Source: an uncultured Planktomarina sp. (GTDB lineage Bacteria > Pseudomonadota > Alphaproteobacteria > Rhodobacterales > Rhodobacteraceae). From it: DNA of 64,000 nucleotides. Below, one piece after another: positions 18,691 through 36,650 of this stretch. The stretch spans positions 1 through 64,000 of the forward strand of contig CAJJBD010000014.1 in assembly GCA_905182325.1 (NCBI GenBank), in the 5' to 3' direction. Below the pieces are notes generated by a model. It did not search any database. It was given only the letters and a program-made list of their open reading frames with translations, and had not been told where the DNA came from. Position numbers and translations under genes: made by a program. Positions within the stretch are counted from its first letter, which is position 1. Each line of letters opens with the position of its first letter.

Positions 18691-19458
18691 TTGACACTGT
18701 TGGGGGTAATGGAGTGGAGCTTGATAGTGAAAGCCAATAATTTACTAATAATTGTTCCTGCACGCGGTGGAAGTAAGCGAATACTACAGAAAAATATTAA
18801 AAATATATGTGGTCAACCAATGATCTATTGGCCACTTATGGAGCTATCAAAGGAATTTCCATCAAGCCAAATCCTGGTCTCAACTGATAATTCTGAAGTT
18901 ATCTCTACTGTTGAAAAAAAAGGTATAAAAGTCCCGTTTGTCCGCCCTCAGTCACTTTCAGATGACTTCACCGGAACTATGGCTGTCGCCACTCATGCAT
19001 TAGCTTGGTTTGAGAAAAATGTATCTGCCGTAGATTACGTATTGATAGTATATCCAACTGCCGTTCTACTTAATATTAATGATATATCGACCGCATTTTC
19101 TTTTTTAAAAAATGACGACAATTGTGACTGTGTGATGTCCGCTACCAACTTTGTATTTCCAATACAGCGAGCTATGTTCCAGAACAGTGAAGGTTATGCA
19201 CAAATGTTTAAGCCTGAAAATCTCATGTCAAGGTCACAAGATTTAGTAGAGGCAATGCACGATGCTGGACAATTCTATTTATATCGATCACGCGCTGTAA
19301 GAGCAGGAAAAGACCTCAACAAATCCAACGTAAAGCTTCAACTGTTAGATCGTAATAAAGTAGTTGATATTGATACGTTAGAAGATTTTGATGTTGCTGA
19401 AACGCGAATGAAAATGTTGGGTCTAGACAAAACAAATTTTGATTGGAAAGTTTTTTAG
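18691..19458 (+). CDS. pseF: Acylneuraminate cytidylyltransferase family, probable pseudaminic acid cytidylyltransferase
   Basis: IIVPARGGSKRILQKNIKNICGQPMIYWPL; STDNSEV; SRSQDLVEAMHDAGQFYLYR. A GTG near 18727 is a possible real start. Confidence 0.8.
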   Translation: MTLLGVMEWSLIVKANNLLIIVPARGGSKRILQKNIKNICGQPMIYWPLMELSKEFPSSQILVSTDNSEVISTVEKKGIKVPFVRPQSLSDDFTGTMAVATHALAWFEKNVSAVDYVLIVYPTAVLLNINDISTAFSFLKNDDNCDCVMSATNFVFPIQRAMFQNSEGYAQMFKPENLMSRSQDLVEAMHDAGQFYLYRSRAVRAGKDLNKSNVKLQLLDRNKVVDIDTLEDFDVAETRMKMLGLDKTNFDWKVF

Positions 19459-19571: not shown

Positions 19572-20816
19572 GTGAGTATCTCAAAAATGAGTATTTTTGG
19601 CGATTTAATTTCAACGCTTTTTGAGAAACGCTATCGCAACCTTTTCCTCACAAACTCTGAGGATAAAAATATTATAGAGTTGGCAAAAGAATTATTAGGG
19701 AGTTATGGTGAGGTGTCTGGCGGAGCGCTGGCACACATGGTTTTTGACAAATATGCTCAAATTAGCCTTAAAGAAAAACATGAATTTTTCCAATTTATGG
19801 CTAACGAGTTAGAAATCAATCCTGACGAAATACGGACATCGCTAGACGCCTACCAGCACGATCCCTCAGAAACTACTTATAAAAAGTTTTCAACTGCTAG
19901 TGAGCCAAAGCGACAGGAACTCATAAGAAGATTGAACCATCCAGATGGAGCAACTGGGCGCCTTGTTGGAATGCGAAAAGATTTACTTTCCTTTGTAAAA
20001 GAGAGTCCCGAACTTGCACCCGTAGCTATAGATTTAAAACATTTATTTACCTCATGGTTTAATCGAGGTTTTTTAGTTTTACGTCCAATTAGTTGGTCAA
20101 GCCCAGCAGAAATTTTAGAGAAAATTATTGAATATGAGGCAGTTCACGCGATAAATAGCTGGGAAGATCTTAGAGCAAGATTGCAACCTGAAGATCGCAG
20201 ATGTTTTGCATTTTTTCATCCAGCCATGCCAGATGAGCCCTTAATTTTTGTTGAAGTTGCATTAACAAAAGGCATTCCAAATTCAATCCAAGGCTTACTC
20301 GAAGCCAACCGAGAGCCAATCTCTCCTGAAGATTCTGATACAGCTGTATTTTACTCGATTTCAAACTGCCAAGAGGGACTAGCAGGGATTTCATTTGGAA
20401 ATTCATTAATAAAGCAAGTTGTGGCAGATTTATCTCTTGCGGTTCCCTCTTTGACAACATTTGTGACCTTGTCTCCAATCCCAAAGCTGAAACGTTGGCT
20501 TGCAAAAGGTATAGTCCCAATGAATGTAAAACATACGGACCAAGCACTGGCAGCCTATTATTTGCTGAATGCAAAAGGCACTGATGGCAGGCCTTATGAT
20601 CCAGTAGCCCGATTCCATCTTGGAAATGGTGCAATGTTACACGCAGTCCATTCTGATGCGGACAACTCAAGCAATGGATTGAAACAATCTAGTGGTGTTA
20701 TGGTGAATTACCGCTACGATCTGAATAAAATTCCACAAAACCACGAGAGCTTTTTGTCAGAAAACAAAATAGCAGTATCTCCAGAGGTCCGCGCCCTAAG
20801 TGCTTCAATAAAATAA
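19572..20816 (+). CDS. Malonyl-CoA decarboxylase
   Basis: HPDGATGRLVGMRKDLL, LKHLFTSWFNRGFLVLRPISWSSPAEILEKIIEYEAVHAI, RRCFAFFHPAMPDEPLIFVEVAL, FHLGNGA. Confidence 0.92.
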   Translation: MSISKMSIFGDLISTLFEKRYRNLFLTNSEDKNIIELAKELLGSYGEVSGGALAHMVFDKYAQISLKEKHEFFQFMANELEINPDEIRTSLDAYQHDPSETTYKKFSTASEPKRQELIRRLNHPDGATGRLVGMRKDLLSFVKESPELAPVAIDLKHLFTSWFNRGFLVLRPISWSSPAEILEKIIEYEAVHAINSWEDLRARLQPEDRRCFAFFHPAMPDEPLIFVEVALTKGIPNSIQGLLEANREPISPEDSDTAVFYSISNCQEGLAGISFGNSLIKQVVADLSLAVPSLTTFVTLSPIPKLKRWLAKGIVPMNVKHTDQALAAYYLLNAKGTDGRPYDPVARFHLGNGAMLHAVHSDADNSSNGLKQSSGVMVNYRYDLNKIPQNHESFLSENKIAVSPEVRALSASIK

Positions 20817-20908: not shown

Positions 20909-22042
20909 TCAAATTCGGTGAGAGGCTATTTCGGCACCCTCAGAGAGGCTTTTTAATTTTGCGTATGCGATGTCTGGGTCAACGGCACCGTAACCCGCAA
21001 AAGTTCCAAAACCGCAATCAGAACCTGCAACCACACGGTCTAGGCCAACTATTTCAACAAATCGGTCAATACGCTGGGCGACGAGTTCTGGGTGTTCTAC
21101 AAAATTAGTAGTCGTATCTACCACGCCAGGTACGAGAACCTTATTTTCTGGAATTTCTAATTTTCTATCACGAAATACTGTCCACTCATGTGCGTGCCGA
21201 GGGTTCGAGGTTTCAAATAATAGATATTTAGCCTTGGCTGACATTAAAGTTGAAAAAACCTTATCCATACCTATATCACAGCAATGAGGCCCCTCATAAT
21301 TACCCCAACAAATATGAATCCTAACTTTTTCTTCAGGTATATTTTGTAAAGCATGATTCAGCGCCTCTACATTGGAGGCGGCTACTTTCACAAACTCATC
21401 ATCACTCAGGTCGTCGAAAAGCATATGTCGTGACAAGGCAAGATCAGGGCAGTCCAATTGCAAGTCAAGGCCAGCAGCAACAATCGTTTCATATTCCTCG
21501 CGCATCACATCCGCCAAAGCCGCCAAATACGTCTCTCTGTTTTTATAATGTGAGTTTTGCAAAAATAAGGAAATTACACCTGGGGAGGCTGCATTCATAA
21601 AACCCCGCTCAATACTGTTTTTTTTCATTGCAACCTTAAGGTTTGATATATCTTTTTCCAACTCTCCCTGACCCTTTGAGGAAATGTTACTTGTGCACAT
21701 CGGGCGGGCGTATTGGGGTGTACCTCCATCATCAGCTAGTCGTTCCAAAAAACCGGGAAACATTTTAAGATCTGCTGGTGCATTCCGAGGACTATCACCG
21801 GAAAATCCATTATAGCGGTCCTTAACATAAGTGGCGTAAGATATTTTTGAAGTCTCGCCATCACTCACTATATCCACACCAGATTTTACCTGTTTTGCAA
21901 CCGTTTCGTTAACTGCATCCGACATAACTACATCAAATGCAGTTTGATCGTATTCAGCCTCATTCTCACGGGCAAAAATAAAATCAACAACTTCTTGACT
22001 ACGTGGTAAGCTACCAACATGAGAGGTGAGAACTTTTTTCAT
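20909..22042 (-). CDS. Stand-alone cobalamin-independent methionine synthase C-terminal-like protein (MetE-C / COG0620)
   Basis: SHVGSLPRSQEVVDF; HICWGNYEGPHC (HxC of the Zn site), FETSNPRHAHEW, VAGSDCGFGTFAGY (Cys ligand); no MetE N-terminal domain. Confidence 0.85.
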   Translation of the reverse strand: MKKVLTSHVGSLPRSQEVVDFIFARENEAEYDQTAFDVVMSDAVNETVAKQVKSGVDIVSDGETSKISYATYVKDRYNGFSGDSPRNAPADLKMFPGFLERLADDGGTPQYARPMCTSNISSKGQGELEKDISNLKVAMKKNSIERGFMNAASPGVISLFLQNSHYKNRETYLAALADVMREEYETIVAAGLDLQLDCPDLALSRHMLFDDLSDDEFVKVAASNVEALNHALQNIPEEKVRIHICWGNYEGPHCCDIGMDKVFSTLMSAKAKYLLFETSNPRHAHEWTVFRDRKLEIPENKVLVPGVVDTTTNFVEHPELVAQRIDRFVEIVGLDRVVAGSDCGFGTFAGYGAVDPDIAYAKLKSLSEGAEIASHRI

Positions 22043-22067
22043 TAAATTTCCTTTTTAGATTTTAATT

Positions 22068-23030
22068 TCAAATCCATGTTGGGCCAGCTAGGTCATCGTT
22101 TGAACACACTCGATACAAGCTTGCTTCACCACTCATTGACGGCTCAATGTTATGCGAAAGACCTGCTGGCAGCAGGCAGGTATCACCAGGATTCAGGGTC
22201 ACTTTTTCGTCACCCCAAGACAGCCTCCAATGCCCCCGCATGGGCATAAAAACTACAGAGTCATCAAATTTTTCTTGAGCACTAGAACCAGAGTTACGTG
22301 TTATAAAATCAACAGAGAAGCCTGGCTTATCTTTTAATACTCCACCTTCCCCAATAACTTGAACTGTTTGACTTGCAGCTAACGACATAAGATCACGGTA
22401 TCTTGCAACATAAAGCGGTACAAATTCTTTGGCAGTGGGCTCAGGTATGCGGGTTAGAACATCGCTAGAAAGAATTGGCATCGGCTTAAGGCCATCAGGT
22501 AATACCTCACCATTCTTACTATCATAAAGACGACCATTTTCACCCAAAATTAAACCATGTTCAGCGGCATCCTCAATTACCTGAGGAGCCCAGGTCACGC
22601 CACCACCGGCGTCGTCTCCACCCAAAATGGCCATTATCATCCCGTAGTCAGACCCAATATTTTCAAACCCCCGAAAAATGCCAGTTGGAATATTAATTAT
22701 ATCACCTTCTTCTAGGGCTACCTCACCCGCTGTACCCCAACGTCCCCAAAAAAAACGCCACCGCCCTTTAAGAACAAAAAATACTTCAGCCGTTGTGTGC
22801 ACATGCAAAGAGTTTCGGCATTTTGGTGGCTGACCCGCAGCCCCAATATTAAATCCTGGAGTGTCCCTAAGATGTACATGTTGGTCAGCACTCTCACTCA
22901 CACCACCACCAATGATCGTAAAATTTTCTTTTTGATTACTGCCAGGAGTGTGGGCGTCAATGAACGCTGTTTGACATGGGATCAAATCTCCATAGCGAAC
23001 AATACATTTTTCCATTTCACTTGGTGTCAT
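22068..23030 (-). CDS. Bicupin-type cupin-domain protein
   Basis: LHVHTTAEVFFVLKGRWRFFWGRWGTAGEVALEEGDIINIPTGIFRGFENIG, and a second copy MRGHWRLSWGDEKVTLNPGDTCLLPAGLSHNI. Confidence 0.82.
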   Translation of the reverse strand: MTPSEMEKCIVRYGDLIPCQTAFIDAHTPGSNQKENFTIIGGGVSESADQHVHLRDTPGFNIGAAGQPPKCRNSLHVHTTAEVFFVLKGRWRFFWGRWGTAGEVALEEGDIINIPTGIFRGFENIGSDYGMIMAILGGDDAGGGVTWAPQVIEDAAEHGLILGENGRLYDSKNGEVLPDGLKPMPILSSDVLTRIPEPTAKEFVPLYVARYRDLMSLAASQTVQVIGEGGVLKDKPGFSVDFITRNSGSSAQEKFDDSVVFMPMRGHWRLSWGDEKVTLNPGDTCLLPAGLSHNIEPSMSGEASLYRVCSNDDLAGPTWI

Positions 23031-23040
23031 ATTATAGTGC

Positions 23041-24018
23041 CTATCCCTTTTTCAGTGCAATTTGCTTCCAAATTGCTGTTTCATCAAACAAAGTATATTC
23101 GCGCCGCAGTCCCCAAGGACCAAATTCAGCATGGCTTATCCCCATAACGTGAACTTCTGCACCAGTTGGTTGGCCAAACGCACCCCAACCATCGTGTTTC
23201 CCAGTGAGGCTCCAACGCAATGCGACGCGTGGTGGCATAAGTGGGTCTTCGCGTCCAATCTGATGATGAATTTCAAAATTTGCCGAGGGAAAGGAGGATC
23301 TTAGTCCAATCCAAAATTCGTCAACACCATCCGTCGATATTAACTCCTTCCCACCTGGGTAATAGCCAGTGACTGCTCTATCATATTCCGTAGAGATGAC
23401 ACTGAGATCAGCTGCCATAATTCGGTTTAATATTTCAGAGTATTTCACACCCCAGGCGTTGTTGTTGCCACGTCCGATATATGGCCCTAATTTGTCATCC
23501 GTAGGATGGAACGGCTTAACGCATCGACTGGATCCGCCCTCAGTTTCAATTTGTTCAATTGCATACTCATAAGGGTCCCATCCCATTTGACGCACAATCG
23601 CACCTTGGTCCCGGATCAACCATTCGTCATTAATTTGATTATTTATTGCGTGGCAATCCGCAACAATTCTATATTTTAAGAATTTTCCCGTCGCCTTTCC
23701 ATATACCCCATCCCCAAGATGAGTTGCAGTAGACAAAATTCGGTGGGATGAAAGCATTCCCTCCTCAGGCGTGCCTGACCATATAACATCTTCTCCCAAA
23801 AGCCGTCGGTCTGGAAATTCAGCAAGGGTTGCCATAGTTGCACCGATAACGTTCGCATTTCCAATCACAAGAGAGCCTGGCGAACGTACGATAATATCCT
23901 GAGAATAGTAGGAATGCAGCGTCCCTAACCCGCGACCCTCCCAGATCTCCTTTGTGATTCCCAAAATATAATCAGGAAAATCAACAAACCGGTCTGAAAA
24001 ACCCTTCATGTGCTCCAC
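23041..24018 (-). CDS. Two-domain SnoaL/NTF2-like protein, type A
   Basis: SnoaL-like pattern (IWEGRGLGTLHSYYSQDIIVRSPG, NDEWLIRDQGAIVRQMG, VMGISHAEFGPWGLRREYTLFDETAIWKQI); paralogous to the 34253-35209 product. Confidence 0.75.
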   Translation of the reverse strand: MEHMKGFSDRFVDFPDYILGITKEIWEGRGLGTLHSYYSQDIIVRSPGSLVIGNANVIGATMATLAEFPDRRLLGEDVIWSGTPEEGMLSSHRILSTATHLGDGVYGKATGKFLKYRIVADCHAINNQINDEWLIRDQGAIVRQMGWDPYEYAIEQIETEGGSSRCVKPFHPTDDKLGPYIGRGNNNAWGVKYSEILNRIMAADLSVISTEYDRAVTGYYPGGKELISTDGVDEFWIGLRSSFPSANFEIHHQIGREDPLMPPRVALRWSLTGKHDGWGAFGQPTGAEVHVMGISHAEFGPWGLRREYTLFDETAIWKQIALKKG

Positions 24019-25025
24019 CCCTCTGGAATTTTAGCTGACCCACGAACAATCAATGGACTATTTATTTTTAGGTGCATTGGGGCAACACCTGGATCACGGA
24101 TTTTATCAATCATAAGTCGCACGGTTTTCTCCACCATCAAATTTGCTCTTTGCCGCAAAGTCGTTAAATTATATCCCGCCCAAGATGACGGCGGAACATC
24201 ATCGTAACCCACAACACTTACGTCAGCCGGAATGCTTAAACCAAGCTCTGATCTCAAGACATCCATTACGGCAAAAGCCATATGGTCAGTCGCTACAAAT
24301 ACTGCGTCAGGCCTACTCGAAGCTGCAAACATTTCACGGGTAACATCCTTGGCAATGTCTGTTGAGAAATCACCTAAAGCGCGTGCAAACAGTATCTGAC
24401 CTGATTTTTTTAGGCCAGAACAAAAGCCAGCCTCTCGGTCACGCTGAGTGGAGGCACCCGCCCAACCCCCAATGTATGCGATTCGTTTATGGCCCGCTTT
24501 ACATAAAAACTGTGCCGCAGTATGGCCACCTTCTATATTATCTGAGGTAACAGAACTGTGTGATTTTTGGTCTTGTGTACGATTAAATAGAACAACAGGA
24601 ACTCCCATTGCCTCGCATCTCGCTGTCACATCGTTAGAGATCCCAACGCTAGCAATAATAATGCCATCAACTTGATAGTCGAGTAGTTCTTCAATGACCT
24701 GCTCAGTAGATTGATTGTCATTAGAGGCCATAAAAACAAGGACGTGGTATCCTTCCTTTTGAAGGGTATTTGAAAGTTTTTCTAAGGCGACCGGATAGAA
24801 ATAGTTATCAAGGTAGGCGACAATAAGGCCGATAATGCGGCTCTTCCCTGTAATTAGGGACCGCGCCAAAATATTTGGACGGTAGCCTAACTCTTGGGCC
24901 GCTTCGCGTACTTTTAAAACAGTTTTATTGCTTGCAGAGGCTCCTGGCGTAAAGACACGACTTACCGCAGACTGGCTTACCCCAGCACGTTTTGCTACTT
25001 CAAGGGATGTTACTTTATCCATCAA
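24006..25025 (-). CDS. LacI family transcriptional regulator
   Basis: N-terminal HTH TSLEVAKRAGVSQSAVSRVFTPGASASNKTVLKVREAAQELGYRPNILARSLITGKSRIIGLIV; periplasmic-binding-like effector domain. Confidence 0.95.
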   Translation of the reverse strand: MMDKVTSLEVAKRAGVSQSAVSRVFTPGASASNKTVLKVREAAQELGYRPNILARSLITGKSRIIGLIVAYLDNYFYPVALEKLSNTLQKEGYHVLVFMASNDNQSTEQVIEELLDYQVDGIIIASVGISNDVTARCEAMGVPVVLFNRTQDQKSHSSVTSDNIEGGHTAAQFLCKAGHKRIAYIGGWAGASTQRDREAGFCSGLKKSGQILFARALGDFSTDIAKDVTREMFAASSRPDAVFVATDHMAFAVMDVLRSELGLSIPADVSVVGYDDVPPSSWAGYNLTTLRQRANLMVEKTVRLMIDKIRDPGVAPMHLKINSPLIVRGSAKIPEGWST

Positions 25026-25786
25026 TCTGCAGTCCAGCCACCATCAATCAACATGTGTGTCCCCGTCATAAGCCCACTTGCATCTGACGCCAAATACACA
25101 ACCGCACCCATCATATCAGTTACTTCACCAACACGTCCTAGTTTAATTTTTTCTTCAAGCCATTTCACACGATCCGGATTCGCAAACGTAGGTTCAGTTA
25201 GGGGAGTGCGTACAAAAGTTGGACAGATTGTATTGACCCTAATTTTGTGAGGGCCCAGTTCAATCGCCATGGCCTTAGTAAAACCCTCAACAGCATGTTT
25301 TGTAGCACAATAAACAGCCCTCTCAATCCCACCTACATGCGCCATTTGACTAGATACATTAATCAAACTTCCGGGCTTTCCGGCCATCACAAGTCCCTTG
25401 GCGACAGCTGTGGTTAGAAAATAGGCACCTTTTATATTTAGGTCCGCAACGACATCATAATCTTCCTCTGTAGTATCTATTGCTAAGGAGTGTGCCGCGG
25501 TACCAGCCGAATTTACTAAAATATCAAAAGGCGACAGGGCTGCCACTGAGTTTTGGGTTGCTGCGATGTTAGACACATCCATCTCTATTGCGTTAGCCAT
25601 GAAGCCAGCTTCCATTAATTGGCGTGCTGTGTCCTCCAATCTGTCAATAGAGCGCGCGGCAAGTGTCACATCCGCACCAGCCTCAGAGAGCGCCACAGCG
25701 CAGCCCAATCCAATACCAGAAGATGCACCAGTAACCAATGCACGCTTGCCATCTAGTCGGAAAGATGGGGTCTGCGGTAGAGTCAA
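25022..25786 (-). CDS. SDR family oxidoreductase
   Basis: RALVTGASSGIGLGCAVALSEAGADVTLAARS, VNSAGTAAHS, YCATKHAVEGFTKAMAIELGPHKIRVNTICPTFVRTPL. Confidence 0.92.
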   Translation of the reverse strand: MTLPQTPSFRLDGKRALVTGASSGIGLGCAVALSEAGADVTLAARSIDRLEDTARQLMEAGFMANAIEMDVSNIAATQNSVAALSPFDILVNSAGTAAHSLAIDTTEEDYDVVADLNIKGAYFLTTAVAKGLVMAGKPGSLINVSSQMAHVGGIERAVYCATKHAVEGFTKAMAIELGPHKIRVNTICPTFVRTPLTEPTFANPDRVKWLEEKIKLGRVGEVTDMMGAVVYLASDASGLMTGTHMLIDGGWTAD

Positions 25787-26826
25787 TCCACCACCTCATT
25801 TGCGATCAAAATAGGGCCAGTGGGCCGCGCTTTGTTGAACTCACACATCCGCTTGAGAACATCCACTCCCAGTTGTTGGTATAGGTCTAGCAAATCAACT
25901 AAAACCCAATTTTCACGAATTTGATCGCCCTCTATCCGCCAGAAGTCGAGACTGCGCATCGTTACGGTCTGACCGCTTGGCGCAATACCCATCCAGCCAC
26001 CATCACTCAATGTTTGTTTCATATTAGGCCAGCCAGTCACGGCTACATAAGGCCCATCTGCAAAAAAGTGATAAGTCAGTTCATCACGATAAGCACCCCT
26101 ATCCGGCATTCCAGCTAGAAATGGAATTTGGTGCCAGTTTCGAAAGCCAGAAATACCACGACCTGTGCCAATTCCAGCAGGCCCATACCAATTCATCTTT
26201 GGGTGCCAATAGCGCGGCATTTCCATTGCGTCTGGTGGCTCTTTTGGATGGCGGGTCATTGCAGTCAACATGTCAATTATTAGCTGTTTAGATTTTATAG
26301 AAGTATCTTGGTAACTCCCAGTTCGTAAACCATCACATGTTGCAGGCCCAGGGATCAGTCCCTCACGACCAAGACTTGGCGCCATTGGCCAAGCACCCGC
26401 CTGCATCATAAGTTCGGGGATGTCCCAGATAGCCTGAACTTCAACAATCTTTTCTTTTTCAACTCGGTAATACTCATGAAACCTCATATGTGCTAAATGG
26501 CCCGTGGGCTGAATATCTAAAAATGGATTGATGAATGTTCCAATATACGTACCTGCAATTCCAATCCAGTCCAGACCATGGTCATCAGATCCAGCCATCA
26601 CAATCCATTGCCGCCTTTCGACGTCTGGCAGTGCATCTCTTAATGGAGCCAAAACATTATCGTAATAATCAGCTCCAGCGATATCTCCAAATGGGTGACA
26701 CATGTGCACCACTGCGTCTTTGGCCATGACTTTATTGAGAGCTACGCGAACAGACTCCTCTGACCAATCGTACATCGCAGCATGCATCTGTGATGTTAGG
26801 TTTCGAAGGGACGAAATATTGATCAT
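25783..26826 (-). CDS. Two-domain SnoaL/NTF2-like protein, type B
   Basis: [43 protein letters not shown] and [44 protein letters not shown]; paralogous to the 33171-34172 product. Confidence 0.78.
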
Positions 26827-28151
26827 TCGGTAGCCGCTTTATAAGGTGCTGATCCTCCATAGGGAATGTTCACCCCACCGTAGCGCCGCACACGTAGATT
26901 GCATTGCTCTGCATGTCCGACAAAACCTTCAAGCAGGCATAGCCTAGATCCATAAGCCCCTATTTCTGCAGCCGCTTCATCGGTTGTGATCTTTTGATAG
27001 CTATGAGTTTTAAGAAACTTGCCGACCCAAAGACCGCCAGTATAACGTCCAGCTTTTTTAGTTGGCAGCGTGTGGTTAGTTCCAATAACTTTATCACCAT
27101 TAGCAACATTTGTCCTCGCACCGAGAAACAATGCGCCATAACAGGTCATATTTTCCAAGAACCAATCATCTCGATCAGTCATTACCTGTACATGCTCTGA
27201 CGCTATCTCATCAGCAATTTCTAACATTTCATCATACGTATCACAAAGGATCACCTCACCATAATCTAGCCACGACTTTCCTGCTGTGTCAGCCGTTGGG
27301 AGAATTTGTAAAAGGCGGTCAATTTCTACCAAAGTAGCATTCGCCAATTTTTCAGAATTGGTGACCAGAACAGCTGGAGAATTATAACCATGCTCAGCCT
27401 GTCCCAAAAGATCAGTTGCACATAGCTCCGCGTCAACTGTGTCGTCTGCAATTACCATTGTTTCAGTTGGCCCCGCAAACAGATCAATACCAACACGACC
27501 AAACAGTTGGCGTTTAGCCTCTGCTACATAGGCATTTCCAGGACCAACCAGCATGTGGACAGGCTCAATTGTTTCGGTTCCAATAGCCATAGCCCCTACA
27601 GCTTGAATGCCACCCAAGACATAGATTTCATGAGCACCACCAAGGTGCATTGCCGCAATCACTGCTGGGTTAGGTTGACCATTAAATGGCGGGGTACAGG
27701 CAATAATACGGGGTACGCCAGCCACTGACGCCGTTGCCACTGACATATGTGCTGAGGCAACCATTGGGAACTTTCCACCTGGTACATAGCAACCTACAGA
27801 TTGAACTGGAATATTTTTATGTCCCAAAATAACGCCAGGCAATGTTTCAATCTCGATATCCAACATGCTATCACGTTGTGCTTGGGCAAAGTTTCGAACC
27901 TGCTCCTGTGCAAACTTAATATCAGCCAATTCCCTCTCCGAAAGTGCAGCCAAAAGGCCTTCTATCTCTTGGTCAGTAAGCCTAAAATTTCTTGGAGTGT
28001 AATTGTCAAATTTAGCTGAAAAATCTCGGATAGCAGCATCACCACGCTCCTCAATATCTACAAGTGTCCTTTCGACAGAAGCCTTCGTGTTTGCGTCATC
28101 CAATGCACGTTCGGCATCAGGCTTCCCAGTTTTCAAATAAGTTATAGTCAT
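26823..28151 (-). CDS. Histidinol-dehydrogenase-family protein, HpsN-like (catabolic paralog)
   Basis: [70 protein letters not shown]; no his genes nearby. Confidence 0.88.
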
Positions 28152-28165
28152 TAATTTTCCTTGAT

Positions 28166-28684
28166 TCAGGTACTATTTTTTTCCTTCCGGTCATAGGCCT
28201 CCCAGCCATGACCAGAAAAAACATCGACGCCCAATTGTGCGAGAACGTTTGGGAAATCGACCATAACCCAATTGTCTACGATCTTTCCATTTTCAACTTT
28301 CCAGAAATCCATGTAGCGAATTTGAATTTTTTTTCCTGTAGGTTCGACACCCATAAAAGTTCCACTATGAACCGCATCTTGCCGCCCAAAGGCTGCAGCC
28401 CATTCACCCATATAGAGCCGCGCCTCGTCCACACACACCTTATCAGAAAACGCAGCCTGAAATGGTTTCTGCCAATTATCTTGAAACTCCCTCACACCTT
28501 CTTTTTCTCCGCAACCAGTATTCCCCATCCAGCGAAACCCCTCAGAAAAAAATTCACCAATATCAACAATGCGGTGATCGTTCAGCCCATCAACCATTCC
28601 TTCGATAACGGTCCGGGTTTCCTCTGTCTTTGACATATCTGTATTTTTACTCAACACAGCTTGTTCTGGTCTTGCTCCACTCAT
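28166..28684 (-). CDS. Single-domain SnoaL/NTF2-like protein, related to type B
   Basis: [47 protein letters not shown]. Confidence 0.78.
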
Positions 28685-29562
28685 CCTTTTACTGCTCCCG
28701 TTGTAAGGCCACTCACTATTTGTCGTTGAAAAACCATAACCAATAAGAATAGTGGGGCTGTTGCAGAGACAACTGCAGCTACAGCAAACATAACATTTCC
28801 CTCAGTCTGAGTTGTCCCTAAAAAGCTTGCAATTTTTGGAACCATGGTCTGATTTGCTTGGCTTAATAATGTGGCTGTAACAGTGAAGTCGTTGTAGGCA
28901 AGCAAAAAAGAAAATAGACCAGTAGTAACGACACCTGGCCACATTACAGGCACGATCACACGCCTAAATGCCTGAAAACGGGTACACCCATCTACCATCG
29001 CACTTTCATCAAGATCCTTAGGTATATTGAGAAAAAAACTATGTAACATCCACAATGTAAAGGGCTGATTAATTGCAACCATCACAATAATGGCAGTAGG
29101 TAAATGTCCCCAAAGGTTCCATTCGAAGAAAGGCAATAAATAACCCGATACCAGTGTAATATGCGGCATGGCACGGAATACTAATGCCAACATCAATAGA
29201 TAAAAAGCATATTTCTTACCCGAGCGGGCGAGTGCGTAACCACCTAAAGTACCCAAGGTAAGTGATATAACGACAACCGAAATCACCACTATCATTGTAT
29301 TTAGTGCAGCGACCCAAAATGATTTGGTTATCCAGGCACCAAAATAGCCGTCACCAGTGAAGGCGCCACCTGTTTCAACCTGAGTGCGAACACCACTAAT
29401 AGCATAAGCCCAATCTGCCTTGGAAAAAAAGTCGCCCTGGACTTTAAAAGAGCCCCACATAGTCCAAAGAAATGGAAAACCTGCAATAAAAACCCAACAC
29501 AGTACAAAGAACCAAATTACAGTATTTAATGGCCACGGACGACGGTGAATAATTTCAGACAT
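28681..29562 (-). CDS. Carbohydrate ABC transporter permease (CUT1, MalG type)
   Basis: EAA-loop-like DLDESAMVDGCTRFQAFRRVIVPVMWPGVVTTGLFSFLLAYNDF; multiple TM segments. Confidence 0.92.
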   Translation of the reverse strand: MSEIIHRRPWPLNTVIWFFVLCWVFIAGFPFLWTMWGSFKVQGDFFSKADWAYAISGVRTQVETGGAFTGDGYFGAWITKSFWVAALNTMIVVISVVVISLTLGTLGGYALARSGKKYAFYLLMLALVFRAMPHITLVSGYLLPFFEWNLWGHLPTAIIVMVAINQPFTLWMLHSFFLNIPKDLDESAMVDGCTRFQAFRRVIVPVMWPGVVTTGLFSFLLAYNDFTVTATLLSQANQTMVPKIASFLGTTQTEGNVMFAVAAVVSATAPLFLLVMVFQRQIVSGLTTGAVKG

Positions 29563-30593
29563 TAAACAACCTTTCCTTTAAAGTCTCGCCAGGTCCTTAA
29601 CAAAACTGGGATTAGCAACACAGCAACACCCAGAATAGTTAAAACTGAAGTAGCGCCCGCAGAACCAAAGAATGTACCCTCACCCCCAGCGAGATCATTA
29701 TAAATAATCCACGAAAGTGAGGTTGCACTAGCCTGCGCTGAAAAACTAACAATGGGCTCAAATACTCGAAAGTTATCCATCAATTGGATTAGACAAATGA
29801 AAACGATTAGTGGGACTAAATGAGGTAAAACAACATAACGTGTGCGTTCCAAACGAGATGCGCCATCAATCATGGCCGCCTCAATCGTATCAGTGGGTAC
29901 CGTTTGAAGACCTGCGTAAAATACAATAAATGCGAATGGGGCCGAATGCCAGATTCCATAAATTATTAACATTATCCACGTTAACGTAGGTGAAGCCTTC
30001 AAAGACAGGTTTGGATCCTCAAAAAGCCACTGCAACATGGAACCTAAAATTCCTTCAGCGTCAATCATCCAAAAAAGTATAAGAGAGCCAATCAATGGTG
30101 TTACGATCATTGGAAGAAGTGACACAAAAATGGTAGGGCCTTTGAATTGCTTGGGTAAACTATTGACGCCCAGCGCAATGCAGAAGCCAAGCAACAAAAC
30201 CAGCGGTGTCACTACAAATGTATAAGTGAGAGTAAATGCGAGGGCACGGTAAAAAGGCAAATTGTACGTTTTACTTAAAAATTTTCCCCAATTGGGACTA
30301 TCGCTCCAAGCTAGAGCCAACTCGCTCGTGGCAAGATGATTTCTATTTTTATAAGTACCAAACCCGTTGAATTTCCCCAAAGGCTGTTCTTCTTTTATCT
30401 GGACGCTAGCCTCAACATCAATTTGAACTTCAAGTTTGCAACCGAATGGGCCACAGTTTTTAACCTCTTTTAGAACCGCCACATGTTCGATGTGCAGAGA
30501 TTGAATAAATACTGATCCAATAGGTAGTGCAATAAAAAGTATCATCGTCACCAGTGACGGTAGAATAAACCAAAAAAATGTACGGTTTTTCAT
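29562..30593 (-). CDS. Carbohydrate ABC transporter permease (CUT1, MalF type)
   Basis: TDTIEAAMIDGASRLERTRYVVLPHLVPLIVFICLIQLMDNFRVFEPI; N-terminal TM. Confidence 0.92.
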   Translation of the reverse strand: MKNRTFFWFILPSLVTMILFIALPIGSVFIQSLHIEHVAVLKEVKNCGPFGCKLEVQIDVEASVQIKEEQPLGKFNGFGTYKNRNHLATSELALAWSDSPNWGKFLSKTYNLPFYRALAFTLTYTFVVTPLVLLLGFCIALGVNSLPKQFKGPTIFVSLLPMIVTPLIGSLILFWMIDAEGILGSMLQWLFEDPNLSLKASPTLTWIMLIIYGIWHSAPFAFIVFYAGLQTVPTDTIEAAMIDGASRLERTRYVVLPHLVPLIVFICLIQLMDNFRVFEPIVSFSAQASATSLSWIIYNDLAGGEGTFFGSAGATSVLTILGVAVLLIPVLLRTWRDFKGKVV

Positions 30594-30653
30594 TTTTAGC
30601 GCCTAATGAGTTTTTAGAGTAGGGGAGGGGCGCACCCCTCCCCCTAGAGATCC

Positions 30654-31889
30654 TTACTTGAGGAAACCTTTTTCTGTTGCTGCCGCAGTATATGCTGCCT
30701 CAACATCTGCTAAAGCCTGCTCGGCACTTTCATTTCCTTGTAGGAAGTCTGAAATTTCAGCGCCAAGTGCGCCGTGCAATGTGCCCATAAACGGAAGCAT
30801 CGGATATGGTGCAGCACCGTCTGCTGCAGTTGCCGTAACTCCCGCAGATGCAGCGCTTGGTGTATATCCATCTCCAAGCCAAACTGTGTCATCATTATTT
30901 GCCTTAATAACATCAGAGGATATTCCATTCATCATAGCAACAAATGTGGCCTCTGCATCTGCATCAGATATATTCGTAGAAATAGAGATGCCATCCCACC
31001 AGAGTGTTGATGCTGGACGTGCATTATTACCCCATGTTGGCGCACCTGTTAGTACGGTTGTGGATGTCACAGCTTCAGTTGAACCTTCATCATCCAAAAC
31101 GGCTCCACCACGACTTCCCCACAATGTTGCCAACGCTATATTTCCAGCCTCCCACTCAGCCTGAGTGGCATTAGAGTCATATGTCAAATAATCTGGATTT
31201 GAATAGGCAACCAAAGACTTGAGCATATTCAATGTTGCAATTCCATGATCATTATTAACTGCTACTTCAGCTGTACCTGGCTTAAAGAATTCTGCACCAG
31301 TACCCATATACATGTTGACAAACTCTTCTGCGAGGTTCCAACCAGCCTTAGTATTTAAAGCTACCGGGTAATCCATTAAACCAGCAGATTTGATTGCTTC
31401 AGCCGCTGCTAAAACGTCTTCATATGTTTTGGGAATGCTGCTTACGCCAGCTTTCTTCAACATGTCAGAACGTGAAAACAAATGCTGTGCATTAGCCATA
31501 AAGGCGATAGCCATAATTTTGCCATTTACTGTAACCAGTTGGCTTGGCTTTAGACCGGCACCATGCTTAGCAACCAACATATCCAAAGGACGCACTAATC
31601 CATCATTCATTAGTGTAACCAAAGTAGAGTTACTCGCAATAACCGAGGTATATTGAGCAGGATTTGCAGTAAGTGCTGCCACCATAATGTCTTTGTGATC
31701 TTTAGTGAGGTTTGCCTCAACAGTTACACCACCACCAGCACAGGCACTTGCGCCAGCTGTTACAGATTGGATTGCAGGAAAGTCATTTGAAAGAATTTTG
31801 ACGTTACCAGAAGAAATTCCGCATCCCGCCATTGCTGTACTTCCGAGAACCATAAAGGCTCCAGCTATCGTTATTTTATTTAGAAACAT
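30654..31889 (-). CDS. Carbohydrate ABC transporter extracellular solute-binding protein
   Basis: Signal peptide MFLNKITIAGAFMVLGSTAMAGC; KKAGVSSIPKTYEDVLAAAEAIKSAGLMDYPVAL; adjacent to CUT1 permeases. Start at 31889 preferred over 31952. Confidence 0.88.
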   Translation of the reverse strand: MFLNKITIAGAFMVLGSTAMAGCGISSGNVKILSNDFPAIQSVTAGASACAGGGVTVEANLTKDHKDIMVAALTANPAQYTSVIASNSTLVTLMNDGLVRPLDMLVAKHGAGLKPSQLVTVNGKIMAIAFMANAQHLFSRSDMLKKAGVSSIPKTYEDVLAAAEAIKSAGLMDYPVALNTKAGWNLAEEFVNMYMGTGAEFFKPGTAEVAVNNDHGIATLNMLKSLVAYSNPDYLTYDSNATQAEWEAGNIALATLWGSRGGAVLDDEGSTEAVTSTTVLTGAPTWGNNARPASTLWWDGISISTNISDADAEATFVAMMNGISSDVIKANNDDTVWLGDGYTPSAASAGVTATAADGAAPYPMLPFMGTLHGALGAEISDFLQGNESAEQALADVEAAYTAAATEKGFLK

Positions 31890-31970
31890 GTGTTTCTCCC
31901 AGTTGTAGTAAGATACGACAGACTTTGCCGTATCTTGGTTAATCCCCACCATGGGGAATCTTAAAGGGGA

Positions 31971-33020
31971 TCAGTCCCCAATCCGCGCACCAGTTTGAAC
32001 ATCAAACAAATGGCAAATTTCTTTAGGTACAGAAATGCGAACCATGTCACCAATTTCTGCCCGGTAATCTTTATGTGCTTTTACTGACACTAATTCGCCG
32101 TTCACCCGAACTGTAATCATTGTGGCGTCACCCAAAAGCTCCATCGTGTAAACGGCTGCATTAATATCTCCACCTTTTTTTACAATGCTTGCATCCTCAG
32201 CACGAAAACCAATTTGGGCAGTCTGATTTGGGAAATTTAATCCAGCAACCTTGAGGTCACCACCAATGAATTGACCGTCAGTCAAACTCCCTTGAACCAA
32301 ATTCATGGCTGGCGCACCAATAAAACTAGCAACAAAGGCATTTGCTGGCCGGTCATAAATTTCAGTTGGACTGCCAACCTGTTGGATAACTCCACCCTTC
32401 ATTACCACCACACGATCTGCGAGCGTCATTGCCTCAATCTGGTCATGGGTGACGTAGATCGTTGTCACTTTTAGTTCGTGGCTTAAGTTTTTAATCTGTG
32501 CTCGGGTCGATACGCGCAGTTTCGCATCTAGATTGGAGAGTGGCTCATCCATAAGAAATACGTTGGGTTCACGGACAATTGCGCGGGCGAGCGCCACGCG
32601 TTGTCTTTGACCACCAGACAGTTCGGCAGGCTTTCTGTGTAGGAATTCGTCCAGCTCTACCATAGCAGACGCGCGCATGACCCGTTCATTATGTTCTGAT
32701 TCTGGAATTTTGCGTACTTTGAGTGGAAATCGGATATTCTCATAAACATTCATATTTGGATAAAGTGCGTAAGATTGGAATACCATCGCCACGTTGCGAT
32801 CTTTGGGGTCTAGATCATTCACCCGAACACCGTCGATTAGAATATCGCCGTCAGTAACCTCTTCAAGGCCAGCAATCATGCGCATTGTGGTCGTTTTTCC
32901 ACATCCAGAAGGCCCTAACAGCACCAAAAACTCTTCGTCTTTAACTGTAAGGTTGAAATGTTCTACGCCAACAAACGAGCCCCACCGTTTTGACAAATTT
33001 TGAAGCTTAATTTCAGCCAT
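31971..33020 (-). CDS. UgpC/MalK-type ABC transporter ATP-binding protein
   Basis: LLGPSGCGKTTTMRMIAGLE, AMVFQSYALYPNMNVYENIRFPL, LSGGQRQRVALARAIVREPNVFLMDEPLSNLDAKLR. Confidence 0.96.
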   Translation of the reverse strand: MAEIKLQNLSKRWGSFVGVEHFNLTVKDEEFLVLLGPSGCGKTTTMRMIAGLEEVTDGDILIDGVRVNDLDPKDRNVAMVFQSYALYPNMNVYENIRFPLKVRKIPESEHNERVMRASAMVELDEFLHRKPAELSGGQRQRVALARAIVREPNVFLMDEPLSNLDAKLRVSTRAQIKNLSHELKVTTIYVTHDQIEAMTLADRVVVMKGGVIQQVGSPTEIYDRPANAFVASFIGAPAMNLVQGSLTDGQFIGGDLKVAGLNFPNQTAQIGFRAEDASIVKKGGDINAAVYTMELLGDATMITVRVNGELVSVKAHKDYRAEIGDMVRISVPKEICHLFDVQTGARIGD

Positions 33021-33048
33021 CCAAGGTCCTTAGAAGAAAAGAATCGAA

Positions 33049-33066
33049 TTTGCATACGCTTGCAAA
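33049..33066. promoter_or_regulatory. LacI/GalR-type operator candidate in the divergent promoter region
   Basis: TTTGCATACGCTTGCAAA: TTTGCA/TGCAAA arms around a central CG, the classic LacI-family operator architecture; between divergent genes at 33020 and 33171. Confidence 0.7.
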
Positions 33067-33170
33067 AACACTACATTTAGGCAAGTAGTTTCCTTCAGTC
33101 AAAACAAAATGAATTACTATTTATAAATTAATCAGGTTGATCACCTTCAATTAAGAACGAGAAAACATAA

Positions 33171-34172
33171 ATGTTAGACTTTCAAAGTGAAAAACGCATC
33201 GTAAAAGATTATTACCAGGCTTTAGATGCGGCAGACGATGTTGGTATAACAGACGTTTTACTAAAGTTCACAGCAAAGGATTACATTTGGCGAGCTTTTC
33301 ATCCATTTAACATCCAAACGGAAGCTAAGTCCGTCAGTAGTATTTTCTGGAAACCCTTTCGAAATTCCGTTCGCCATTTACAGCGGCGCATGGATGTTTT
33401 CTTTGCGGGCAAAAACTTTATAGATGACAGGGAATCTGTTTGGGTATGCTCCATGGGCCACCTAATGGGGCTGTTTGATAATCCTTGGCTCGGAATTCAA
33501 CCAACAGGTAAACTCGTAATGCTGCGCTATGCAGAGTTTCACAAAATTGAAAATGGCAAGATTGCAGAGACTGCATTCTACTTTGATATTCCTCACCTAA
33601 TGATCCAAGCTGGTTATGATCCATTTAAAAGCCCAACGGCAATGCATCTGGTGCAGCCTGGTCCGACGACCCATGACGCTTTGCTATTCAAAGACGCTCC
33701 AGCCTCTGAGGGGCAAAAGACAATGGATGTGATGCACGCAATGATCAGTGACTTAGGTACCTGGCAGTCAGGGTTGCCGTTGGAAGAAGAGTTGGCCCGC
33801 ACCTGGCACAATGATATGTCTTGGTGGGGGCCTGCTGGAATAGGTGCTACTTACACTATTGAGCGCTACGCAAAACAGCATTCAGGTCCATTTAGGGCAG
33901 CCTTTACCGAGCGCTCTGGGACGGGTCATATTGCACGTATAGCTGAAGGGCATTATTCTGGGTTTTTTGGTTGGCCTAACTTTGTGGCAAAGCCATCAGC
34001 TGGATTTATGGGCCTCCCTCCAAGTAACAAACTCTGTGAATTTAGGGTTATTGATATCTACCGACGTGAGGGTGAAAAGCTGAAGGAAAACTGGGTCTTT
34101 ATTGACATGCTGCACTTTTTCAAACAGCAGCGTGTGGATATACTTGCCAACCTTCAGGAAGGTTTCAAATAA
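33171..34172 (+). CDS. Two-domain SnoaL/NTF2-like protein, type B
   Basis: NPWLGIQPTGKLVMLRYAEFHKIENGKIAETAFYFDIPHLMIQAG; MSWWGPAGIGATYTIERYAKQH; FRVIDIYRREGEKLKENWVFIDMLHFFKQQRVDIL. Confidence 0.78.
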   Translation: MLDFQSEKRIVKDYYQALDAADDVGITDVLLKFTAKDYIWRAFHPFNIQTEAKSVSSIFWKPFRNSVRHLQRRMDVFFAGKNFIDDRESVWVCSMGHLMGLFDNPWLGIQPTGKLVMLRYAEFHKIENGKIAETAFYFDIPHLMIQAGYDPFKSPTAMHLVQPGPTTHDALLFKDAPASEGQKTMDVMHAMISDLGTWQSGLPLEEELARTWHNDMSWWGPAGIGATYTIERYAKQHSGPFRAAFTERSGTGHIARIAEGHYSGFFGWPNFVAKPSAGFMGLPPSNKLCEFRVIDIYRREGEKLKENWVFIDMLHFFKQQRVDILANLQEGFK

Positions 34173-34252
34173 AATGATATTTATGCGCCACCATTTATGG
34201 AGTTTGGCTAAAATCAGTTTTTGCTGTCGAAGTACTTCCGGAGTAAACAATA

Positions 34253-35209
34253 ATGAGGGGGTTTGACGATAAATATATTGATCTCCCAGATTATATTTTA
34301 AAGTGCACTGCCCAAATTTGGGAGGGGCGTAATATTTCTGCGCTAGACTGGCATTACGCAGATAATCTTTTAGTGAGAACTCCCGCTGGGATAAGCCACG
34401 GAAATGCAGCAGGCAAAGCTAACACGATGGCAACTTTGTCAGAGTTTCCTGATCGCCAGTTGCTTGGAGAAGATGTGATTTGGTGTGGCGATGAAGATGC
34501 TGGATTTCTTTCCTCTCACCGCATCTTGTCAACCGCCACGCACCGCGGCGGTGTGTTTGGCCCTGCCACCGGGCGACAGCTAACATTCAGAACAATTGCA
34601 GACACATTTTGCCGTGAAAACTGCGTATGGGACGAGTGGTTGATTAGGGATAATGCAGCAATCGCCCTCCAGATTGGACAATCTCCAGAGAATTGTGCCC
34701 GAAATTCAATTGCTGCGGGCGATCGAAAAGCGCCACTCACCCCAACCTCAGACATCATTGGTCCCTATAAGAGTGATGGTAACCACGATAATTGGGGCGT
34801 CAAGCATGCGGCAGTTATGCAGAACATTATGAACACAAATTTTGAGACCATAACAAAGGAATATGATCGGGCTTGTCACCTTTCTCTTCCTGCAGGCCAA
34901 GAAGTCCATGGGTGGTCTGGCGCAGAGAATTTTTGGTTAGGGCTGCGAAGCGCATTACCCTCTGCAGAATTCAAAATTGATCACCAAATGGGCCAAGATG
35001 ATCCACTTCTTAGCCCCCGAAGCGCCATACGTTGGTCACTAAATGGGTCCCATGACGGCTGGGGACGTTATGGAGCACCTACAGGAGCCAACATACATAT
35101 CATGGGCGTAAGTCATGTCGAATTTGGCCCTAGAGGTCTGCGACGAGAAATTACACTTTTTGATGATATAGCAGTCTGGAAGCAGATACTGCTACAAACA
35201 GAGCCCTAA
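34253..35209 (+). CDS. Two-domain SnoaL/NTF2-like protein, type A
   Basis: FPDRQLLGEDVIWCGDEDAGFLSSHRILSTATHRGG; WDEWLIRDNAAIALQIG; HIMGVSHVEFGPRGLRREITLFDDIAVWKQIL; matches 23041-24018 along its length. Confidence 0.75.
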   Translation: MRGFDDKYIDLPDYILKCTAQIWEGRNISALDWHYADNLLVRTPAGISHGNAAGKANTMATLSEFPDRQLLGEDVIWCGDEDAGFLSSHRILSTATHRGGVFGPATGRQLTFRTIADTFCRENCVWDEWLIRDNAAIALQIGQSPENCARNSIAAGDRKAPLTPTSDIIGPYKSDGNHDNWGVKHAAVMQNIMNTNFETITKEYDRACHLSLPAGQEVHGWSGAENFWLGLRSALPSAEFKIDHQMGQDDPLLSPRSAIRWSLNGSHDGWGRYGAPTGANIHIMGVSHVEFGPRGLRREITLFDDIAVWKQILLQTEP

Positions 35210-35259
35210 AATGGTAAAAACTAAATTAAAAATTACTAGCACTGGGCAGGACTTTATTT

Positions 35260-35955
35260 ATGGATGAGCCACTTGTTCTTCTGCCAGGAATGATGTGCGA
35301 TGCCCGCCTTTTTCATCCACAAATAGAATTATTTTCTTCAAATCGATCACTGATGGTAATGGAATTAAAAGGAAAAAAAACAATGGCAGGCTTGGCGAAG
35401 AGCGTGCTTGAACGTGCCCCGGAACGTTTTGCTCTTGCTGGGCTATCCATGGGTGGGATTGTTGCGATGGAAATCATTCGTCAAGAGCCTGACCGGGTCA
35501 CTAGACTTGCCTTAATGGACACGAACCCACTAGCAGATCCCCCTGAAAAGGCAGCCCAGCGGAAATCCCAGATCAACCGAGTAATGGCTGGTGCATTAAG
35601 GTCAGTTATGCGTGACGAAATTAAGCCCAATTACCTGTGCCATGCCTCCAAAAGCCATGATATTTTAAAAATATGTATGGATATGGCTCAGGATTTGGGA
35701 CCAAAAGTTTTCCAAGATCAATCCTCTGCCCTGCAAAATCGTCCAGACCAATGCAATACGCTACAATTAGTAAACGTTCCATCATTAGTACTTTGTGGCG
35801 AAAACGATCAACTCTGCCCAGTTTCTCGGCATATTTTAATGCATGACTTGATCAATGGATCTCGTCTAGAAATAATTCCCAGGGCTGGTCACCTGCCTAC
35901 CTTAGAACAACCTGAACTAACAAATAGAAAGCTAAAAGAATGGCTGAAGCAATAA
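35260..35955 (+). CDS. Alpha/beta hydrolase
   Basis: VLLPGMMCDARLFHPQ, FALAGLSMGGIVAMEIIRQEPDRVTRLALMDTNP (GxSxG), GENDQLCPV, PRAGHLPTLEQP. Confidence 0.9.
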   Translation: MDEPLVLLPGMMCDARLFHPQIELFSSNRSLMVMELKGKKTMAGLAKSVLERAPERFALAGLSMGGIVAMEIIRQEPDRVTRLALMDTNPLADPPEKAAQRKSQINRVMAGALRSVMRDEIKPNYLCHASKSHDILKICMDMAQDLGPKVFQDQSSALQNRPDQCNTLQLVNVPSLVLCGENDQLCPVSRHILMHDLINGSRLEIIPRAGHLPTLEQPELTNRKLKEWLKQ

Positions 35956-36650
35956 TTTCCGAAGAGTTACTGGCGTTACTGCGGCAAGTTGATACGCCAA
36001 CAGTCTGCAATGCTATCGAAGTGGCACAAGGCAAGCGTGGCTTTAATTCCTTTACACGCGGCACTATGCAGCACTCAAGACCAGGGGATCCAGCTATTGT
36101 TGGGTTTGCTCGAACTGCCAAAATTTCAGGATTAGCAGCACCTAAAGAACCATCAGATGTAATTCGTGCCCGGCGCATGGACTACTTCCGTAGTATGGCT
36201 GGTGGGAATGGTCCAACAGTTGCTGTTGTCGAGGATGTGGACTTTCCCAACTGTATAGCAGGCTGGTGGGGCGAAGTTCATGTTGCTGTACATAAAGGAC
36301 TCGGCATGCGCGGCGCCGTTACTAACGGTGTGGTGCGAGATCTTGACGTAATGGATGAGGGCTTTCCTGTTCTCGCAGGCTCTGTTGGGCCAAGCCATGG
36401 TTTCGTCCATGTGCTCAAAATTGGCGATCCAGTGGAAGTCATGAACATGAGGGTATGCCAGGGGGATCTGATCCATGCTGATCGTCACGGCGCCCTAGTT
36501 ATTCCAACTGGCGTAGTTTCTCTACTTAAAAATGCAATTGAAAAAGTTATTGATAGCGAAGCTATTGTCTTAGTTCCAGCACGCGAACCAGGCTTCAACA
36601 TTGAAAAGCTTGAAGAGGTCTGGGCACAATTTGAAGCAGCCAGAACCTGA
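35940..36650 (+). CDS. RraA-like / HMG-aldolase family protein
   Basis: VDTPTVCNAIE, VAVVEDVDFPNCIAGWWGEVHVAVHKGLGMRGAVTNGVVRDLDVMDEGFPVLAG, VCQGDLIHADRHGALVIP. Confidence 0.92.
   Translation: MAEAIISEELLALLRQVDTPTVCNAIEVAQGKRGFNSFTRGTMQHSRPGDPAIVGFARTAKISGLAAPKEPSDVIRARRMDYFRSMAGGNGPTVAVVEDVDFPNCIAGWWGEVHVAVHKGLGMRGAVTNGVVRDLDVMDEGFPVLAGSVGPSHGFVHVLKIGDPVEVMNMRVCQGDLIHADRHGALVIPTGVVSLLKNAIEKVIDSEAIVLVPAREPGFNIEKLEEVWAQFEAART

Follow-up and report, generated by a model that had tools for sequence, protein, structure and literature searches.

A conserved locus rich in two-domain NTF2/SnoaL proteins in Planktomarina and relatives, with a predicted LacI operator and a candidate role in the non-phosphorylative breakdown of a sugar- or cyclitol-like compound

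What could five proteins of the NTF2/SnoaL fold be doing side by side in a bacterial locus that contains a sugar-type transporter and no polyketide synthase? The question is raised by a 64,000-nucleotide stretch of DNA, hereafter the window (positions 1 to 64,000 of contig CAJJBD010000014.1, here C14, in the 1.9 Mb, 78% complete genome of an uncultured Planktomarina sp., GCA_905182325.1), in which sixteen genes, lettered by window position from A (MetE-like) to P (RraA-like), occupy positions 20909-36650. Taken together, the data tip moderately towards these genes encoding a pathway, inducible and non-phosphorylative, that breaks down a small hydroxylated compound of sugar- or cyclitol-like type, probably methylated. 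What the sequence itself shows is which genes are present, that the operator and the gene order are conserved, and that A, G, O and P keep their catalytic residues; from these we infer the substrate, the order of the steps and the reactions of the NTF2 proteins.

The sixteen-gene inventory given in a preliminary description of the locus was recovered in full from the listing of open reading frames, with twelve genes on the minus strand and four on the plus strand, and Pfam and NCBIfam searches back the class of nearly all of them. Minus-strand genes L to A are separated by overlaps of a few bases or gaps of at most 60 bp, a spacing that suggests an arrangement as in one long operon, and M, N, O and P are oriented opposite to them. 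PF07366 is matched by the five NTF2/SnoaL proteins already counted in that description: the two-domain type A protein C (23041-24018, minus strand), the two-domain type B protein F (25783-26826, minus), the single-domain H (28166-28684, minus), the divergently oriented two-domain type B copy M (33171-34172, plus) and the two-domain type A protein N (34253-35209, plus), a lineage-specific second copy of C; the assignment of four of them as two-domain proteins agrees with AlphaFold models of C and F, which show two halves. Genome-wide, PF12680 (SnoaL_2) is matched six times, and all six matches fall inside these five genes. This confinement, the tight minus-strand spacing and the co-occurrence of types B and A described below indicate that the locus genes are gathered beyond chance. 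The absence of a polyketide synthase was likewise confirmed, since none was found by Pfam and NCBIfam searches among the locus genes, and none among their conserved neighbours.

The regulatory signal was then explored across relatives. The palindrome TTGCAnnCGnnTGCAA lies upstream of L in 39 of 59 relatives (count from the printed list), and its copy in the window, the predicted operator TTGCATACGCTTGCAA (33050-33065, no strand assigned), sits in the divergent L/M promoter and is the sole exact copy in the source genome. From its position and conservation, this palindrome is likely the operator of the LacI-family, RbsR-like regulator encoded by D (24006-25025, minus; PF00356, PF13377). Operator-type sites were found in 61 of 151 family genomes, against five genomes with the reversed pattern. 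When 42 regions around such sites were fetched, many of them picked as not obviously beside the main cluster, 35 contained cluster-type genes (in one, L186, paralogues only) and seven contained no cluster gene. The site also recurs where the gene set is split: in G562 it is found at three places, beside a HisD-NTF2B-SDR piece (SDR, short-chain dehydrogenase/reductase), a single NTF2 with NTF2-B, and the CUT1 transporter; in G503 beside hydrolase plus cupin and beside the transporter; in G548 beside the transporter and beside MetE plus hydrolase; and G532 and G581 similarly carry it beside separated cluster pieces. It is retained, too, where cupin B is on its own (L184; in G020 a cupin gene by itself follows the site at 23 bp) and where A is separated from the cluster (L193). 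Because the same operator accompanies these separated pieces, the transporter, NTF2, HisD-like, SDR, cupin and MetE-like genes look like members of one regulon.

Inspection by eye of the off-cluster operator regions gave some further leads only: one region resembles an inositol cluster, another a TRAP-TAXI transporter. An operator copy in G526 lies 26 bp from an apparent TRAP-TAXI transporter gene (L185:4165-7270), which is a possible extra regulon member. The first operator pattern also caught a repeat-type site, TTGCAACCGGTTGCAA, and was narrowed for that reason. This different palindrome forms pairs about 7.6 kb apart (as at 68983 and 76620 of contig C6 in G005) in many same-genus genomes, and is probably the operator of another LacI-type regulator. 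A scan for promoters and terminators performed no better than on shuffled sequence.

Conservation of the genes themselves was evaluated in 80 related loci, retained after a contig scan with F as query had yielded 280 relatives, and belonging mostly to Rhodobacteraceae, with SUP05, SAR116 and others also represented. Scored by tblastn, the core genes are each present in 37-76 of the 80 loci, these counts being lower bounds because many contigs are short: G in 76, C in 75, D in 73, H in 70, B in 67, L in 65, I and J in 64 each, K and E in 62 each, M in 56, A in 55, P in 48 and O in 37. The commonest order has M divergent from L-K-J-I-H-G-F-E-D-C-B-A-(O)-P, from which the window departs by having O and P behind M. 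Two loci on contigs labelled Flavobacteriales/Flavobacteriia (L010 and L020) carry alphaproteobacterial versions; L020 matches L019 over its whole length, and both labels are probably binning errors.

Co-occurrence points in the same direction. F and C are found together in 21 of 61 genomes and each alone in one (Fisher p 4e-14), and F and A together in 20 of 61 (p 7e-13), p values that are inflated by 20 of the 61 genomes sharing one genus; outside that genus C is present in all four F carriers (p 1e-5). The preliminary description had proposed to judge the locus by whether its genes co-occur in related genomes, and the gene set is indeed conserved there. Its gene list was nonetheless only partly that of the common set, for although the genes are real, N (53% identical to C) is lineage-specific, being seen as a second C copy in L007, L008, G014 and G016, and the window locus lacks a fuconolactonase-like amidohydrolase seen with 36 of the fetched loci. 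The three PF04909 genes present elsewhere in the source genome include none similar to this cluster lactonase at E 1e-3. In keeping with the undescribed look of the locus noted in that description, no close characterised equivalent cluster was found in literature searches, most subscription journals lying outside their reach; a report of two SnoaL-like proteins on S. meliloti pSymA (PMC12337268) includes none of the other locus genes and was set aside.

Plasmids of Ruegeria, Octadecabacter, Paracoccus and Marinovum bear the complete or nearly complete set. In Martelella, Roseibium and Sinorhizobium, a ~392-aa ester cyclase and an amidase accompany the HisD-like, SDR, LacI, cupin, hydrolase and RraA genes, and Vibrio pelagius has a CUT1 transporter with four ester cyclases. 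On a plasmid of the archaeon Halobellus limi (L106, 956-14983), whose host comes from a solar saltern, an ATP-binding cassette (ABC) transporter, an aldehyde dehydrogenase, five ester cyclases (four of two-domain size) and a MetE-like gene stand in a row. The Vibrio and rhizobial clusters are rearranged versions of the gene set and the haloarchaeal plasmid is a looser one. In further genomes the partner of related enzymes is a TRAP transporter, a YidK-like sodium symporter together with a TonB receptor, or a major facilitator superfamily (MFS) transporter together with a porin; as the import route varies while the enzymes stay related, the NTF2 proteins seem to be part of the enzymatic core and not of the transporter. 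R. johnstonii pRL8 was rejected as a version of the locus, as it has only the HisD-like gene of the set and different neighbours. In some lineages, glycine cleavage, carnitine dehydrogenase/BKACE-like, sarcosine oxidase or serine deaminase genes (identified partly by eye) adjoin the locus (L068, L075, L077, L081; L071, L073, L084; L107, L111, L147). The locus adjoins SBP56 and genes annotated for dimethylsulfoniopropionate (DMSP) breakdown in Marinovum algicola (L113:21530-28172), and SBP56 in Phaeobacter piscinae (L110:13789-15852); these neighbours could be due to chance.

The putative importer comprises the UgpC-type ATPase L (31971-33020, minus; NF008653 above cut-off), the MalE-type solute-binding protein K (30654-31952, minus) and the CUT1-type permeases 1 and 2, J (29562-30593, minus) and I (28681-29562, minus), both matching PF00528. 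No Pfam or NCBIfam match was obtained for K, which was assigned from Protein Data Bank (PDB) matches at E 2e-7 to 1e-6 with proteins that bind xylo-oligosaccharides and chitin-oligosaccharides. In the proposed pathway, LacI would bind TTGCAnnCGnnTGCAA between L and M and keep both operons off until an inducer is present, whereupon the CUT1 transporter would import a hydroxylated sugar- or cyclitol-like compound, probably bearing a methyl group, to be degraded without phosphorylation. The SDR dehydrogenase E (25022-25786, minus; PF13561, with KduD as its top NCBIfam match, under cut-off), of KduD/sugar dehydrogenase type, might oxidize a secondary alcohol or hemiacetal, and G would convert a CH2OH group to an acid using two NAD+. 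C, F, H, M and N would contribute dehydration, hydration or C-C lyase steps, O would open a lactone or ester, a role that elsewhere might be filled by the fuconolactonase-like amidohydrolase, the core-MetE protein A would move the methyl group to a thiol, and P would make the last C-C cut toward central metabolites.

Considering that (i) the operator is conserved, (ii) synteny and co-occurrence hold among relatives, (iii) transporter and binding protein are of sugar type, (iv) the same enzymes are found with other transporters and, in many loci, with the fuconolactonase-like amidohydrolase, (v) the expected residues are kept in A, G, O and P, and (vi) LdpA provides a precedent for an NTF2 enzyme in catabolism, such a pathway is the reading we adopt. 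The earlier interpretation as a LacI-controlled, conserved import-and-degrade locus for a sugar-like compound is thus retained, and reinforced by the operator in split clusters, while its HpsN label is not. Several points weigh on the other side: TRAP variants suggest an acid substrate in some genomes; the pairing of LacI with the operator is deduced from position; the model needs no kinase, yet the absence of one is no proof; A may transfer a methyl group to the substrate and not from it; and A was not seen in 20 of 81 loci holding LacI, NTF2-A and cupin, although some of these loci are on short contigs and A can be located apart from them. A more ambitious version, in which NTF2/SnoaL enzymes take over from the sugar-acid dehydratases and lyases normally used, in a widespread undescribed pathway that also includes a new HisD-like subfamily, a demethylating core-MetE and an abundant algal methylated sugar- or cyclitol-like substrate, possibly of mycosporine or gadusol type, is regarded as rather doubtful.

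The role of A (20909-22042, minus; PF01717), a core-MetE-like Zn methyltransferase in which the N-terminal MetE half is absent, is where this scheme meets its first competitor, namely that A is an ordinary cobalamin-independent methionine synthase merely travelling with the locus. Its MetE Zn ligands are intact (H243, C245, E277 and C343, invariant in 53 sequences), and core-MetE homologues, of questionable function, are known from marine bacteria (PMC12478193, 2025), both of which would suit this idea. On the contrary, A scores far under the methionine synthase cut-offs of NCBIfam, is inside the cluster in 55 of the 80 loci and has its own operator when separated (L193). Moreover, a core-MetE homologue, which may or may not correspond to A, does not free P. 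inhibens from its need for methionine upon mutation of mtgCDE (PMC12478193). An ordinary methionine synthase is therefore held to be unlikely. A SAM (S-adenosylmethionine) methyltransferase was considered as a MetE substitute and rejected, as it occurs in two loci only and without pattern.

Other substrates would engage the remaining enzymes differently. B (22068-23030, minus; PF07883) is a two-domain cupin with invariant H76, H78 and E82 and with R120 in place of the His that, as fourth ligand, would complete the three-His-one-Glu set of cupin dioxygenases; its residues are compatible with a possible 2-His-1-Glu metal site. O (35260-35955, plus; PF00561), a PcaD/BioH-like alpha/beta hydrolase, keeps an invariant S63, D183, H211 triad, and P (35940-36650, plus; PF03737), an RraA-like aldolase/decarboxylase, an invariant R133-D134 in the 34 of 34 sequences with letters there. 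Mycosporine and gadusol compounds have a methoxylated ring and a tertiary OH beside CH2OH. Were the substrate a mycosporine, a mycosporine-like amino acid or a gadusol-type cyclohexenone, G would oxidize the CH2OH, NTF2 proteins would carry out both dehydration and isomerization of the ring, the methoxy methyl would be taken off by A, and completion of ring breakdown would fall to B, O and P; this chemistry suits HisD-like, NTF2, methyltransferase, PcaD-like and RraA-like steps. The glycine cleavage, serine deaminase or sarcosine oxidase genes beside some loci and the saltern origin of the archaeal host would fit as well. Nonetheless, these neighbours are circumstantial and vary by lineage, nothing in favour came from a literature search for genes of mycosporine degradation, and neither the rhizobial hosts nor CUT1 and LacI are specific pointers, which leaves such a substrate with a low probability.

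A comparably low probability is assigned to an aromatic or lignin-like substrate, for which the NTF2 proteins would be LdpA-type lyases and the cupin, PcaD-like and RraA-like proteins would serve ring cleavage and a lower pathway. LdpA is an NTF2 enzyme that acts in catabolism, by dehydration followed by C-C cleavage, as a lyase (PMC12997858), O is PcaD-like, P resembles carboxy-hydroxy-oxoadipate aldolases and B retains its 2-His-1-Glu set. However, transporter, binding protein and LacI are all of sugar type, the conserved set has no ring hydroxylase or Rieske enzyme, and many hosts are open-ocean plankton. No diarylpropane lyase is among the PDB matches listed for the NTF2 proteins, a comparison that did not include LdpA itself.

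Structural features of the NTF2 proteins bear on whether they are enzymes at all. The AlphaFold models of C and F (pLDDT, predicted local distance difference test, 95.4 and 90.0) each contain two complete NTF2 halves, which in Foldseek match the SnoaL-type proteins IdmH, AclR, SnoaL2 and ChaU; C also matches limonene epoxide hydrolase, and F, with matches ranked by E-value, has at the top Lsd19 and MonB, epoxide hydrolases with tandem NTF2 domains, at a whole-protein TM-score of only ~0.3. H, the one protein aligned residue by residue, is related to IdmH and SnoaL and has an invariant Val140 at the position of Asp121, the catalytic residue of SnoaL, so that SnoaL-type cyclase chemistry is not expected for it. 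NTF2 folds often bind ligands only. That common behaviour and the loss of Asp121 in H would agree with non-enzymatic binders or scaffolds that carry the substrate or shield the cell from reactive intermediates, a role that appears hardly probable given that types A and B each hold many invariant Asp, Glu, His and Arg residues, in excess of the needs of a plain scaffold, and that three to five NTF2 proteins are kept per locus.

G (26823-28151, minus; PF00815), a HisD-superfamily Zn dehydrogenase, had been described as HpsN-like, and its nearest solved structures are HpsN proteins. It retains every catalytic residue of the series Gln, His, Glu, His, Asp, Lys, His, with E319, H320, D353, Q251, H254 and H413 invariant and matching HpsN catalytic Glu318, His319 and Asp352 and the Zn ligands, and, as in HpsN, a Lys stands beside the metal-binding Asp where HisD has Tyr. 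HpsN is separated from HisD by the motif GRY[A/S]H, with His126 contacting the sulfonate (PMC11382572). The motif of G is GKFPM, with Met at the sulfonate-recognizing His position; 80 of the 84 long tblastn matches have it, and the remaining four comprise one GKYPM, two GRYPL paralogues and a GRYSH gene of the source genome. In a FastTree phylogeny the cluster G proteins group in a clade of their own (support 1.000) that excludes HpsN, HisD and a further clade with GRYPL, and its distant members carry GKYPM or GKYPL. The GRYSH gene, a second HisD-superfamily member (contig C3:45257-46531, L103), is probably the real HpsN of the source genome. The HpsN-like label is therefore withdrawn; from motif, clade and catalytic residues, G is likely still an alcohol-to-acid dehydrogenase, but not HpsN. 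A role in histidine synthesis was also rejected on motif, clade and paralogue, even though automatic annotation names G hisD, as its TIGR00069 score is above cut-off despite its place outside the HisD sequences in the tree. No third PF00815 match that could be the true HisD was found in the 78% complete source genome. The GRYPL clade is represented in L100:1894-3180, L101:1107-2390 and L272, and in L100 and L101 its genes are near an amidase, a ~392-aa ester cyclase and a CUT1 transporter. Hence, a pathway for 2,3-dihydroxypropanesulfonate (DHPS) or another sulfonate with G as the HpsN enzyme, to which the closeness of G to solved HpsN structures and its retained Lys might point, is very improbable in view of GKFPM in place of GRY[A/S]H, the separate clade, the GRYSH gene located elsewhere, and the absence of HpsO/HpsP and a sulfolyase among the locus genes (Pfam/NCBIfam).

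Around the locus, pseudaminic acid genes (PseF-like and PseI-like) flank both sides (window 18691-19458 and 36774-37838), and a malonyl-CoA decarboxylase gene directly outside it (19572-20816) does not belong to the conserved set.

Should the proposed pathway be confirmed, Rhodobacteraceae, SUP05, SAR116 and others would share a dedicated route for a compound nobody has named, and labels such as 'histidinol dehydrogenase', 'ester cyclase' and 'methionine synthase' would be masking a share of the carbon that passes from algae to bacteria. Ocean bacteria may thus have a common nutrient still to be named, with a switchable gene set that occurs also in some soil bacteria and a salt-loving archaeon. 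In addition, the marine core-MetE homologues whose function was called questionable (PMC12478193) would gain a testable role, the HisD family would gain a clade with its own motif, and HpsN-based metagenome estimates of DHPS use could include the G family unless GRY[A/S]H is checked.

Compared with known systems, the locus shares with LacI-controlled CUT1 sugar operons a LacI regulator with palindromic operator, a MalE/UgpC-type transporter and an SDR, and differs from them in lacking a kinase or glycosidase in its conserved set and in having three to five NTF2 proteins, a HisD-like enzyme and a core-MetE. Non-phosphorylative L-fucose/L-rhamnose oxidation resembles it in the KduD/glucose/rhamnose-group SDR, the terminal aldolase and, in many relatives, the fuconolactonase-like amidohydrolase that the window locus lacks; on the contrary, the conserved set has no enolase-type sugar-acid dehydratase, for which the NTF2 proteins may stand in. 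SnoaL-type cyclases (IdmH, AclR, SnoaL2, ChaU) share the NTF2/SnoaL fold of each half at 17-23% identity, whereas here there is no polyketide synthase, H has no Asp121 and four proteins are fused double-domain ones. Lsd19 and MonB, polyether epoxide hydrolases, similarly have two NTF2 domains in, or combined into, one functional unit, but are biosynthetic enzymes, not catabolic ones, and the whole-protein similarity of F to them is low. LdpA (PMC12997858) shares a catabolic NTF2 role by dehydration and C-C cleavage, and differs in its lignin dimer substrate, its setting and the absence of a close sequence match among the matches. HpsN (PMC11382572) has in common with G the fold, Zn site, catalytic residues and Lys beside the metal-binding Asp, while motif, clade and gene neighbourhood differ, G and the GRYSH protein of the source genome being ~45% identical. 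Finally, marine core-MetE (PMC12478193) is, as A, a truncated MetE with four Zn ligands, A being set apart by its predicted LacI control within a catabolic regulon.

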